From Candidatus Methanofastidiosum methylothiophilum (GTDB lineage: Archaea; Methanobacteriota_B; Thermococci; Methanofastidiosales; Methanofastidiosaceae), in assembly GCA_001587575.1 (NCBI GenBank), contig LNJC01000019.1, forward strand, positions 1 to 32,373: a DNA stretch of 32,373 bases, given 5' to 3'. This document shows positions 1-32,373 of the stretch, piece after piece. Under the pieces are notes generated by a model, which made no database searches, was not told the origin of the DNA, and was given only the letters and a program-made list of their open reading frames with translations. The position numbers were made by a program, and so were the translations under genes. The stretch's first letter is position 1. Each line of letters opens with the position of its first letter.

Positions 1-1
1 T

Positions 2-547
2 CCAAGCAGGGTAGTAATAGTAGACGGTACAGGAATAAAGACGACAAATAGAGGTGACTGGCGCTCAGTGTTCTACGAAAGAAGGAAAAACTGGCTCAAA
101 GTGAACATTGCCATAGATGAAAATACCGGTGAGCTATTAGGTATTGACATTGCCCCTGGTCCACAGCACGACAGCAAATCTTTTGAGAAGATAGTTCAAG
201 ATGTTCCAATGTCAGTATTGAAAGGTGACGGAGCATTCGACAAGAAAGGCATATTCAATTACTGCTATAGGAACAAAATCACTCCCGCGATTAAAGTTAG
301 AAAGAGTTCGATACCTCGTAGCAGGAGTTCGCCCCTAAGGAAAAAGTGTGTGCAAGAGTTAATGGGTCTTGGTGAGGAAGCTTGGAAAGAAAAATACGAT
401 TATGGTAAAAGATGGCTAGTCGAAAGCTATTTCTCAGCTGTCAAGCGTTCCTACGGAGAGTCAGTCAAATCAAGAAGAAGCGACATGATGGTAAAGGAGG
501 CAATGATTAAGTTTTTGCTTTATGCAACAGTTAGACAAATTGCATAA
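2..547 (+). CDS. IS4/IS5-family DDE transposase, N-terminally truncated by the window edge
   Basis: The reading frame is open to the left edge, so the GTG at 68 is internal and the true start lies outside. All three catalytic residues are visible: the first Asp in the VDGTG motif at nt 23-25, the second Asp in KGDGAFD (nt 227-229), and the Glu in the C-terminal motif near nt 422. That last motif fits the Y-(2)-R-(3)-E-(6)-K signature of IS4/IS5 transposases exactly (Y-GK-R-WLV-E-SYFSAV-K). The catalytic C-terminal half is uninterrupted, so this copy may be active if its N-terminus is intact. The stop lies 34 nt before the terminal repeat. The exact IS subgroup cannot be assigned by reading. 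Confidence 0.85.
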   Translation, partial: PSRVVIVDGTGIKTTNRGDWRSVFYERRKNWLKVNIAIDENTGELLGIDIAPGPQHDSKSFEKIVQDVPMSVLKGDGAFDKKGIFNYCYRNKITPAIKVRKSSIPRSRSSPLRKKCVQELMGLGEEAWKEKYDYGKRWLVESYFSAVKRSYGESVKSRRSDMMVKEAMIKFLLYATVRQIA

Positions 548-581
548 AGCACTGCTTCTGGAAAAGGATACATAGTTTTAT

Positions 582-621
582 AGGCATAGTTGCTAGAAGC
601 GCTGAATTATGCAACCATGCA
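582..621. repeat. Insertion-sequence terminal repeat, right end, with internal dyad
   Basis: This 40-bp sequence is the reverse complement of 32330-32369 without a mismatch. It also contains an imperfect internal dyad: GCATAGTTGC at 585-594 can pair with GCAACCATGC at 611-620 (9 of 10 positions), and AGCGCT sits near the centre. In single-stranded form it would fold into a hairpin. It marks the outer end of the element downstream of the transposase. Confidence 0.8.
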
Positions 622-653
622 CTTTAATAAGTATATATTTGATTTAAGTTATT

Positions 654-663
654 CTTAAATATA
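654..663 (+). promoter_or_regulatory. Putative TATA box of the transglutaminase-like gene pair
   Basis: CTTAAATATA lies about 25 nt upstream of the ATG at 684, the distance expected between an archaeal TATA box and the transcription start. No Shine-Dalgarno sequence precedes the ATG, so the transcript is probably leaderless. The box lies about 35 nt outside the IS terminus. Confidence 0.45.
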
Positions 664-683
664 GACTTCGTCTTAATAAAATC

Positions 684-1463
684 ATGGACAATAGGCTTCT
701 AGTTGTTTTATTTTTTATAGTGGGTATTTTATTCTTTTCATTTATGTTTATTAGTGAAACTCAAAAATTAAATAGTCAATTAGAATCAAATTACGAACTA
801 GAAGCAAAAATAATTGAATCTTATTCAAATCTCCAAGATACTAATTCTACCTTAATAGAAAAAATAATGGGGCTTGAAGAAAAAATTCAAGATAAAACTA
901 GACTATCAGAAGAGGAAAAATCACTTAATTATTTACAGAATGAATTAAATCAAGAAATATATTCTTACAAAGTATATGAATCAAAAGATCCTCGAGATTT
1001 CGTTGATGCCAATGATTCATTAGTCTTAGAAACCTTGAATCAAATTATTACCCCCAATATGAGCAAGGCAGAGAAAGTAAGAGAGATATTCAAGTATACA
1101 AGGGACGAAATTAAGAGAGATGACAAACTTATACGAAATGGTAGAATTGACTACTGGAACTATCCAAAAAACATCATTCAGAGTAAAAAAGGAGAGTATG
1201 AAGATAAAATAATTCTACTAATATCGATGCTTAGATCTGCAGGATTTAGTGAAAATGAAGTTGAAGTAGTTGGGGCAAAAATCAATTTGCCAAATTCTAC
1301 TTCTTCAGATATTTGGGTAGAATTGAAACTGAACGGAAATATATATTTACTTTTACCTAGAGAAAATAACAATTTTGATTCTTTTAATAAAAATGATATT
1401 TACACGATTTACAGTGTTCAAGAATTATACAGATTTAATGATAAAAAATTGACGAGGTCATAA
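684..1463 (+). CDS. Membrane-anchored transglutaminase-like protein lacking the catalytic triad
   Basis: Residues 5-23 form one hydrophobic membrane anchor, followed by a charged, coiled-coil-like stretch (about 25-95) and a transglutaminase-like domain (about 115-230). That domain aligns by eye over its length with the next gene: RDEIK, YWNYP against YWQFP, GEYED against GDCED, IWVEL against AWVEL. The catalytic positions are replaced: Cys to Tyr172, His to Asp209, Asp to Leu224. The whole 259-residue protein contains no cysteine and no histidine. It is therefore predicted to be a non-catalytic paralog, perhaps a partner, scaffold or substrate-binding subunit of its neighbour. The domain should lie outside the membrane if the anchor is N-in. 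The gene is intact, with one nucleotide between its stop and the next start. The biological role is unknown. Confidence 0.8.
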   Translation: MDNRLLVVLFFIVGILFFSFMFISETQKLNSQLESNYELEAKIIESYSNLQDTNSTLIEKIMGLEEKIQDKTRLSEEEKSLNYLQNELNQEIYSYKVYESKDPRDFVDANDSLVLETLNQIITPNMSKAEKVREIFKYTRDEIKRDDKLIRNGRIDYWNYPKNIIQSKKGEYEDKIILLISMLRSAGFSENEVEVVGAKINLPNSTSSDIWVELKLNGNIYLLLPRENNNFDSFNKNDIYTIYSVQELYRFNDKKLTRS

Positions 1464-1464
1464 A

Positions 1465-2226
1465 TTGAATAATAAAGAATTTAAGATTGTAATAATCTTG
1501 TTAATGGTTATGACGTCAATACTATTCTCAGGGTATTTACTTAGATATTACCAGTACAACCAAAGTCTTGAAAAAGAAAAGAATATAGAGGATATGCTAA
1601 TACTTTATGATAAAGAAAATGCCATTCTTCAAGATAGAATAAAGTCAATAGATGAGGATATGATACTTGAAGATGTAAATATAAAAGATCTTCAAATAAA
1701 TATATTACAGAGAACAGATAATGTTAATCTTCTAAGAAATCAGATAACAGTTTATGAAAAATTAAAGAATTATGACATGACTGTTTTCATAACACCGGAC
1801 AATGAAAAAATTAGATCTTTTGCTAATCAAATCGATACAGAAAATCCAGTTACAATATATAAGTTCGTTCGTGATGAAATTAAATATGTCGAAGATTATC
1901 TAACTTTTGATTACAGATTTGAATATTGGCAGTTTCCTGAAGAAACCTTAAAATTAAGAACTGGAGACTGTGAAGATCAGGCCATTTTATTATGCACACT
2001 ATTAAGGGCTAAAGGGTACAGCCCTGAAGATGTAAAAGTAGTATTTGGACTAACATCCTCAAATACCGGACATGCATGGGTAGAGCTTTTTTATGAAGGG
2101 GGTTGGGTTGTTTTTGATCCAACAAGTAGTGCAAATGAGTATATTGAAAAGACTAGGTATTATTCCTTAATCAATGCAAATTATAAAGGCTCGTTTAATG
2201 ATGTAAACTATGAATTTATCCAATAA
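1465..2226 (+). CDS. Membrane-anchored transglutaminase-like cysteine protein with intact triad
   Basis: Residues 6-26 form a single membrane anchor, followed by a predicted coiled coil (about 30-100) and a transglutaminase-like domain. The papain-like triad is present: Cys169 in GDCEDQA, His203 in GHAWVEL and Asp218 in VFDPTSS. Such archaeal domains may be peptidases or act on amide bonds; no substrate can be read from the sequence. The start is TTG at 1465, supported by GAGGT at 1454-1458 with a 6-nt spacer, and the gene follows its catalytically dead paralog by one nucleotide, so the two are probably cotranscribed. Its stop abuts the convergent acdB stop with no gap. Confidence 0.85.
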   Translation: MNNKEFKIVIILLMVMTSILFSGYLLRYYQYNQSLEKEKNIEDMLILYDKENAILQDRIKSIDEDMILEDVNIKDLQINILQRTDNVNLLRNQITVYEKLKNYDMTVFITPDNEKIRSFANQIDTENPVTIYKFVRDEIKYVEDYLTFDYRFEYWQFPEETLKLRTGDCEDQAILLCTLLRAKGYSPEDVKVVFGLTSSNTGHAWVELFYEGGWVVFDPTSSANEYIEKTRYYSLINANYKGSFNDVNYEFIQ

Positions 2227-13947: not shown

Positions 13948-15702
13948 TTGGCATTAAGAGAAATGACACCATATAGAAGATTCATGTCCGCTATGACTGG
14001 CGGCCGTGTTGATAGAACACCTGTAATGGTTCTTTCTAACTTTTGTAAAGAATTAATGGCTTCAACAAACGTTACTTGGCCAGCATGTCAGACTGATTCA
14101 AAGGTTATGGCACAATTTCAGGCAGGAAGATATGAAGTATGGGGACTAGATGTATTGATATCACACAACGATTTAGTATCCGAAGCAACAATGCTCGGAG
14201 CAGAAATTGACCTTGGAACAGACCTTAGACATCCCTCAGTATTAAAGCATGTACTTGAAAATACTGATCCAACAAAATACAACATGCCAAAAGATGTTGT
14301 ATCTAAGGGAAGAAATCCAATTGTTGAAGGTTCTGCTAAGATTTTAGTTGAGAAATATGAAGGACTTGTTCCAGTTCTAAGAACAGTTACCGGTCCAATG
14401 ACAATTGCAGGTCACCTTTTTGGTGTTGACAGGATTTTAATGTGGTCAAAACAAGAAGAAAAGAAATTTGAAGCTTGTCTTGATATATGTACAGATCTCT
14501 GTATAGAAATCATCAGAAACTCTGCAGACTCGAGCGGAGTAGATGGATACTACATGCCTGACCCGACAGCATCAGGAGATTTACTTGATCCAAAAGATTT
14601 CCAGTACTTCCTCGAACCAAGATATAAGAGAATGACAAAGGAAACAAAAGATGTTGTTTCAATGTTACACATTTGTGGCGATACAAGAGGATATATGGAC
14701 AGGATCCCACACTCTGGATTTGATGCGTTCTCATTTGAGGCTCCTGGAACTTCTGTTAAGGAAGCAGTAATGGGTCTTGGAGACAGGGTTACACTAGTTG
14801 GAAGTTTGGAAACAATCCCCGTCGTTATGATGGGTAAGCCTGATTATGTTTACACACAGTCATTAAGAGATATCGCAGATGGGGTAGATATACTTGCACC
14901 TGCATGTGGTACACCGCCAATGACTCCAAATGCAAACATAAGGGCAATGGTAGAAGCATGTGAGCCAAAAAAGGTCAAGAGAAAAGTTGTCGCGCTAAGC
15001 AAAGAAGAAATCATAAAGAAATACACACCAGCAAAACCTGAACTTGCAGAAATTACAAGGGCAGTTATGGTAGGAGATGCCGTAACAACTGAAAATTTAG
15101 TAGTAGCAGCTCTTAAGAAAGGAGTTAAACCAATTGATCTAGTAGAAGAAGCTTTGTTACCTGGTGCAATTGGAGTAGCAGAGATGTACGATGGCGGTTA
15201 TGCCTTCGTTCCTGAGATATTACTCGCTGCAAATGCCATGAAGAAGGGTATCGGCCACTGTCAGAGTGCAATGGGAAATGTAAAGCCAAAGGGTAAAATT
15301 ATAATGCACGTTGCATTCGGTGACGTACATGCCATTGGAAAAGACATTGTGAAATCAATCTTAACTGCAAAGGGATACCAAGTAACGGATCTTGGTGCAA
15401 GTGTACCATGGGAGAAAGTAGTGGAAGCTGCAAAGAAGGAAAAGCCTGACGTTGTATCTGGAACTGCATTAATGACAACAACAAGAACTGCATTCCCAAG
15501 AGTAGTTGAACTTATGAAGAAGGAAGGTTTAGAGATTCCATTCATAGTTGCAGGTGGAGCAGTTGACCCAGCATACGCAGAAACAATGGACTATGCAATA
15601 TACTGTAAAGGACCAGGAGATGCCGAGCCTGTCTTTGAAGGTATAAGAAAAGGCAAGAAGTGGCAACAGATCAGAGAAGAAGAACACAAGAAATACAAGT
15701 AA
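13948..15702 (+). CDS. Methyltransferase/corrinoid-protein fusion (methyl:coenzyme M type)
   Basis: One 584-residue chain joins two proteins usually made separately. Residues 1-345 are a UroD-fold zinc methyltransferase of the MtaA/MtbA/MtsA class, with zinc ligands His241 and Cys243 (HICGD) and Cys320 (APACGTPP). Residues 350-445 are the helical cap of a corrinoid protein (MYDGGYAFVPEILLAANAM) and 448-572 the B12-binding domain, with DVHAIG at 459-464 supplying the cobalt-ligand His461. It should transfer methyl groups between a methylated compound, the bound corrinoid and coenzyme M. Methylated-thiol use is suggested by known methanogen fusion proteins but is not proven by sequence. The start is TTG at 13948, 7 nt after AAGGAGG. 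The gene has its own promoter and T-rich terminator. Confidence 0.9.
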   Translation: MALREMTPYRRFMSAMTGGRVDRTPVMVLSNFCKELMASTNVTWPACQTDSKVMAQFQAGRYEVWGLDVLISHNDLVSEATMLGAEIDLGTDLRHPSVLKHVLENTDPTKYNMPKDVVSKGRNPIVEGSAKILVEKYEGLVPVLRTVTGPMTIAGHLFGVDRILMWSKQEEKKFEACLDICTDLCIEIIRNSADSSGVDGYYMPDPTASGDLLDPKDFQYFLEPRYKRMTKETKDVVSMLHICGDTRGYMDRIPHSGFDAFSFEAPGTSVKEAVMGLGDRVTLVGSLETIPVVMMGKPDYVYTQSLRDIADGVDILAPACGTPPMTPNANIRAMVEACEPKKVKRKVVALSKEEIIKKYTPAKPELAEITRAVMVGDAVTTENLVVAALKKGVKPIDLVEEALLPGAIGVAEMYDGGYAFVPEILLAANAMKKGIGHCQSAMGNVKPKGKIIMHVAFGDVHAIGKDIVKSILTAKGYQVTDLGASVPWEKVVEAAKKEKPDVVSGTALMTTTRTAFPRVVELMKKEGLEIPFIVAGGAVDPAYAETMDYAIYCKGPGDAEPVFEGIRKGKKWQQIREEEHKKYK

Positions 15703-32329: not shown

Positions 32330-32373
32330 TGCATGGTTGCATAATTCAGCGCTTCTAGCAACTATGCCTTCAT
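32330..32373. mobile_element. Terminus of a second insertion-sequence copy at the right edge
   Basis: Positions 32330-32369 are the exact reverse complement of 582-621. Four further bases (32370-32373) do not continue the match with the other copy, so this is probably the opposite terminus of a same-orientation copy. The rest of the element lies beyond the window. Confidence 0.75.

Follow-up and report, generated by a model that had tools for sequence, protein, structure and literature searches.

A conserved archaeal gene pair encoding a membrane-anchored transglutaminase-like protein with an intact catalytic triad and its predicted pseudoenzyme paralog

Introduction

LapG of Pseudomonas and Legionella and DvhG of Desulfovibrio are cysteine proteases of the BTLCP (Peptidase_C93) family with a transglutaminase-like fold, a Cys-His-Asp triad and the motif Asp-Cys-Glu-Asp, and are controlled by a c-di-GMP receptor (LapD or DvhD). 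DvhG is a membrane-anchored LapG relative with an N-terminal membrane helix, in which mutation of the residues flanking the catalytic cysteine (D316/E318) abolishes activity (PMC13090378). Inactive transglutaminase domains are also known. RloB, from the rlo operon of Pseudomonas aeruginosa, is an inactive transglutaminase with seven membrane helices, its domain predicted to face outward and its partners being an aspartic protease and an ATP-grasp protein, with no active paralog (PMC12239564). Catalytic residues are likewise lost in domains of polymorphic toxins, for which a binding role has been proposed (PMC3482391), and in human EPB42 (PMC10318531); for neither is an adjoining live paralog of like architecture described. 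Dead partners with other folds include the prozyme of Trypanosoma AdoMetDC, a dead paralog that regulates the active one (PMC5201418), and CspC:CspA of C. difficile, paired pseudoproteases that transduce a signal (PMC12880746).

The locus described here, from uncultured archaea, comprises two adjacent genes, one for a catalytically dead and the other for a live transglutaminase-like protein. The live paralog shares fold, triad and Asp-Cys-Glu-Asp motif with LapG and DvhG, and the pair shares the N-terminal membrane helix with DvhG. Unlike both, the pair is archaeal and has a long helical stalk, its live protein falls far under the LapG equivalog cut-off, and its control, if any, would lie with the dead paralog instead of a c-di-GMP receptor. 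The dead paralog belongs to the superfamily of the toxin domains and EPB42 and resembles RloB in its predicted outward-facing inactive domain and its operon with a protease (here a predicted one), differing in membrane helices and partners. The role proposed for it is that of the AdoMetDC prozyme, although the folds of that enzyme and of CspC:CspA are unrelated and the complexes shown there are for this pair only proposed. Searches of the literature yielded no account of the pair in either Methanofastidiosum or Theionarchaea. The statement of an earlier sequence-only reading that no such system is described stood for the dead/live pair in the literature searched, but not for inactive membrane-bound transglutaminase-like domains or for dead-paralog partners, both already described. 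Little is known of regulated proteolysis at the archaeal cell surface, and the pair is a compact, testable case of a pseudoenzyme partnering an active paralog there, which extends LapG-like features (fold, calcium motif and membrane tether) to archaea.

Results

Layout of the pair

The window is the whole stretch of DNA analysed, 32,373 nt of contig LNJC01000019.1 of Candidatus Methanofastidiosum methylothiophilum; coordinates are those of the window, forward strand. The dead paralog (684..1463, +) starts with ATG and encodes 259 aa, as defined by its open reading frame, Pfam, alignment and model. It comprises a membrane helix (residues ~5-23), a long helical stalk to residue ~100 and a transglutaminase-like domain (~105-259). 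The live paralog (1465..2226, +) starts with TTG, encodes 253 aa and has the same layout. The two reading frames are 1 nt apart, as the sequence-only reading had stated, and the proteins align over nearly their whole length with 62 of 232 residues identical (27%, E=3e-19). Both exceed the cut-off of 23 bits for Pfam Transglut_core (PF01841), the live paralog with 55.3 bits and the dead one with 27.6.

The alignment also bore out the claims made for the catalytic residues. The Cys-His-Asp triad of active enzymes is intact in the live paralog (+ strand: Cys169, 1969-1971; His203, 2071-2073; Asp218, 2116-2118) and absent from the dead one, where the same columns hold Tyr172, Asp209 and Leu224, the codon of Tyr172 at the catalytic Cys position being 1197..1199 (+). 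The first protein had been said to contain no cysteine or histidine, and it has none of either, a state limited to some species: four dead homologs of the genus carry one His, and those of Theionarchaea have two Cys and four His, none of them in the triad Cys and His columns. A Phe-Asn-Asp motif near the C-terminus (1434-1442 and 2194-2202) occurs without change in every protein of the pair, dead or live.

The live paralog and LapG

The best PDB match of both structure models is LapG (live E=3.1e-7, dead E=3.3e-5). By sequence profile LapG is again the best match of the live protein (E=8e-6), with YVED...YW.P...GDCED in common, and the dead profile gave no significant match among PDB sequences. 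The Pfam profile Peptidase_C93 (BTLCP, PF06035) is matched by the live protein with 30.6 bits (cut-off 27), and neither by the dead protein nor by the live homolog of Theionarchaea. Against the LapG equivalog NF045674 the live protein scores 25.7 bits, far below the cut-off of 320, and the name LapG was rejected for this reason. With the Peptidase_C93 match, this indicates that it may act like a tethered LapG without being LapG.

The catalytic cysteine lies in the motif D168-C169-E170-D171, where D168 and E170 are invariant in the ten live proteins of the pair. These Asp and Glu residues are equivalent to the calcium-binding residues of LapG and form a putative calcium site. No gene for a LapD-like receptor or a LapA-like substrate was noticed adjoining the pair.

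Structure models and stalks

The AlphaFold2 models have a pLDDT of 84.7 (dead) and 88.3 (live). In both, a single helix runs from about residue 2 to about residue 100 and is followed by the transglutaminase-like domain, the long helix being of high confidence. The common layout of membrane anchor, coiled coil and transglutaminase-like domain proposed from the sequence was recovered in its first and last parts and only partly in the middle one: the helix is confident, the heptad periodicity of the stalk is marginal at most, and coiled coil was rejected as a firm assignment. The stretch linking membrane helix to domain measures 83 residues (dead) and 82 (live) in the genus, and 90 (dead) and 90-91 (live) in Theionarchaea, so that between lineages both stalks shift together by about one heptad. 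These matched lengths fit side-by-side packing, though they come from only two lineages and depend on where the membrane boundary is estimated to lie. An outward orientation of the domains is predicted from the positive-inside rule, with a signal that is clear for the Theionarchaea proteins but weak for the two of the window.

Distribution and gene neighbours

A profile search of the phylum (115 genomes) identified the two genes side by side, always dead before live, in 8 of 10 genomes of Methanofastidiosum and in both of the Theionarchaea genomes with matches. The exceptions in the genus are G003, whose contig breaks off within the adjoining gene for the acetyl-CoA synthetase beta subunit, and G008, a genome 76% complete; neither therefore shows a true loss of the pair, and their absence was rejected as uninformative on dispensability. 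Two genomes of the same order, G019 and G017, each encode one active relative without the long stalk (L058:872-1645 and L011:1126-1887). In that of G019 the catalytic Asp is replaced by Glu, just like in the live proteins of Theionarchaea; this relative also has the Phe-Asn-Asp motif, which is Met-Ser-Asp in G017.

Outside these two lineages no pair was found among 84,980 species scanned with two short peptide patterns, a scan of limited sensitivity that could have missed more distant pairs beyond the phylum. Viral contigs encode no relative, and a viral origin of the pair was rejected on this ground.

The neighbours in the genus are a pyridine nucleotide-disulphide oxidoreductase, located upstream in those relatives whose contigs reach that far, and subunits of acetyl-CoA synthetase (ADP-forming). 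In Theionarchaea the pair follows Memo/AMMECR1 and radical SAM genes and precedes an ABC-transport-auxiliary-like gene. Since the flanking genes are wholly different between lineages, the pair is the conserved unit. The sequence-only reading had called for a search of related genomes, and in these two archaeal lineages dead and live genes have stayed side by side since a time before Methanofastidiosum and Theionarchaea diverged.

Expression signals

Dead and live genes are separated by a single nucleotide in seven of the eight genus genomes, by 2 nt in the other and by about 4 nt in Theionarchaea. A Shine-Dalgarno-like GAGGT of the live gene (1454..1458, +) lies inside the dead gene, in its final codons; it is GAGGT in 7/8 genus genomes and GGGGT in G005. 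The short spacing and a site of this kind inside the dead gene suggest coupled translation. Upstream of the pair there is a conserved block (632..663, +) whose TATA-like TTAAATATA (655-663) precedes the ATG by about 25 nt. This block is probably a dedicated promoter, from which the transcript of the first gene would be leaderless.

Inactivation and conservation of the dead gene

In each of the ten dead proteins Tyr stands in place of Cys, and either Asp or Trp in place of His. Their triad columns are Y/D/L in the genus and Y/W/D in Theionarchaea; those of the live proteins are C/H/D in the genus, and in Theionarchaea the third position is Glu. In the tree all dead proteins group in a single clade (support 98/95), and the split between dead and live is retained (99/96) in a domain-only tree from which catalytic columns and stalk were removed. 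A tree with independent duplications was rejected (p-AU 0.015), all of these trees having long branches between lineages. The shared Tyr and Asp or Trp, together with the single clade, point to one old inactivation, and a separate one in each lineage is disfavoured by the trees, including that without catalytic columns and stalk. The third residue, Asp in the Theionarchaea dead proteins and Leu in those of the genus, would have been lost later or separately.

The dead gene is under purifying selection, with a pairwise dN/dS of 0.11-0.21 that is similar to that of the live gene (~0.08-0.22). Synonymous sites are near saturation in the wider comparisons, so that the close pairs weigh most: G001/G002 (dead 0.109, live 0.197) and G006/G007 (dead 0.111, live 0.176). 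Between lineages the dead proteins are most conserved in the former active-site segment (47%) and little in the stalk (10-12%). R151, G153, R154, Y172, K175 and A198 are invariant across lineages in the dead proteins and not in the live ones, the first five of them lying in this former active-site segment, and at Tyr172 the motif KG-x-YEDK is invariant in all ten except for x. Such a conserved former active-site face suggests a re-used binding face and not drift.

Discussion

The reading favoured, which is slightly more likely to be right than not, is that the live protein is a membrane-tethered cysteine peptidase and the dead paralog its subunit for substrate binding or regulation. The two-cistron operon would encode an outward-facing LapG/BTLCP-like cysteine peptidase and a catalytically dead paralog, each anchored by its N-terminal helix and held outward by matched helical stalks, with the two subunits most likely packed side by side. 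The live subunit, possibly calcium dependent, would cut or modify a cell-surface protein. The reshaped former active-site face of the dead subunit may bind the substrate or a signal and so position or gate the live one. Conserved adjacency, spacing and matched stalks make such a heteromeric complex, and regulation by the dead subunit, plausible. Less favourable to this reading are the marginal heptad periodicity, the two-lineage basis of the stalk comparison, the low LapG equivalog score of the live protein, the lack of LapD-like or LapA-like genes noticed beside the pair and the weak positive-inside signal of the two proteins of the window.

The opposite view of the first gene, as a functionless decaying remnant, agrees with the fact that in this species no residue of the triad is left, and is extremely improbable. 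All homologs of the gene are without the catalytic Cys and His, and none of the ten contains stops or frameshifts, so neither of two signs that the sequence-only reading had named for a remnant (a retained triad elsewhere, or decay in relatives) was found. The dead-gene dN/dS of 0.11-0.21 and the six dead-specific residues invariant across lineages also oppose it; pseudogene decay was rejected on dN/dS and conservation. A pseudoenzyme beside an active paralog, as first proposed, is well supported by the same dN/dS values and by the retention of the pair in two lineages. In another reading the two proteins form no complex, and the dead one would be an independent surface homodimer binding peptides or other ligands, adjacency reflecting tandem duplication and joint expression. 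The peptide-binding anchors that inactive transglutaminase domains are proposed to form in polymorphic toxins (PMC3482391) and the marginal heptad periodicity of the stalk speak for such a homodimer. The order, adjacency and 1-4 nt gap kept in two lineages with unrelated surroundings, and the matched stalk lengths, speak against it, and it is considered rather unlikely. In a further reading the live protein would form or cleave amides in cell-wall or S-layer material, as a transamidase, isopeptidase or peptide amidase of the same fold and not as a LapG-like site-specific protease, and the dead one may still help it. The top Pfam match of the live protein is the general Transglut_core, and weaker structural matches include streptococcal TglA and the pseudomurein endoisopeptidase PeiP. 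This reading is unlikely given that LapG is the top match by structure and sequence, that Asp and Glu stand on either side of the cysteine and that the Peptidase_C93 cut-off is passed (30.6 against 27).

The peptidase with a dead co-subunit may have a variant in Theionarchaea, where the dead paralogs are extended ahead of the membrane helix by an N-terminal segment of some 60 residues (L029:3086-3304 and L030:3982-4200). This segment matches winged-helix Pfam families weakly (HTH_45, E=0.019; HVO_A0261_N, E=0.038), gives only a low probability in profile-profile comparison and has no other match in the ten genomes searched; winged helix was rejected as a firm assignment. From this weak resemblance the Theionarchaea dead protein may be a membrane-spanning one-component regulator, its dead protease being the outside sensor for the substrate or state of the live one, so that a surface protease would be read out by its own dead copy. 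The DNA-binding part would have been lost, or never gained, in Methanofastidiosum, leaving a pure co-subunit. This proposal is speculative and its correctness doubtful.

Other features of the contig

Outside the system, positions 1..621 (+) contain the 3' part of an insertion-sequence transposase and the right end of the element. It lies upstream of the promoter-like block, which is left intact, and is not found upstream of the pair in the aligned relatives. At the other end of the window, 32330-32369 is a 40-bp match to the end of this element, so that insertion-sequence material stands at both ends of the contig. Copies are also located at the ends of other contigs, so the element probably broke the assembly. 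At 13948-15702 the window encodes what by eye appears to be a fusion of a methyltransferase with a corrinoid-binding domain, which would plausibly serve methylated-thiol methanogenesis.
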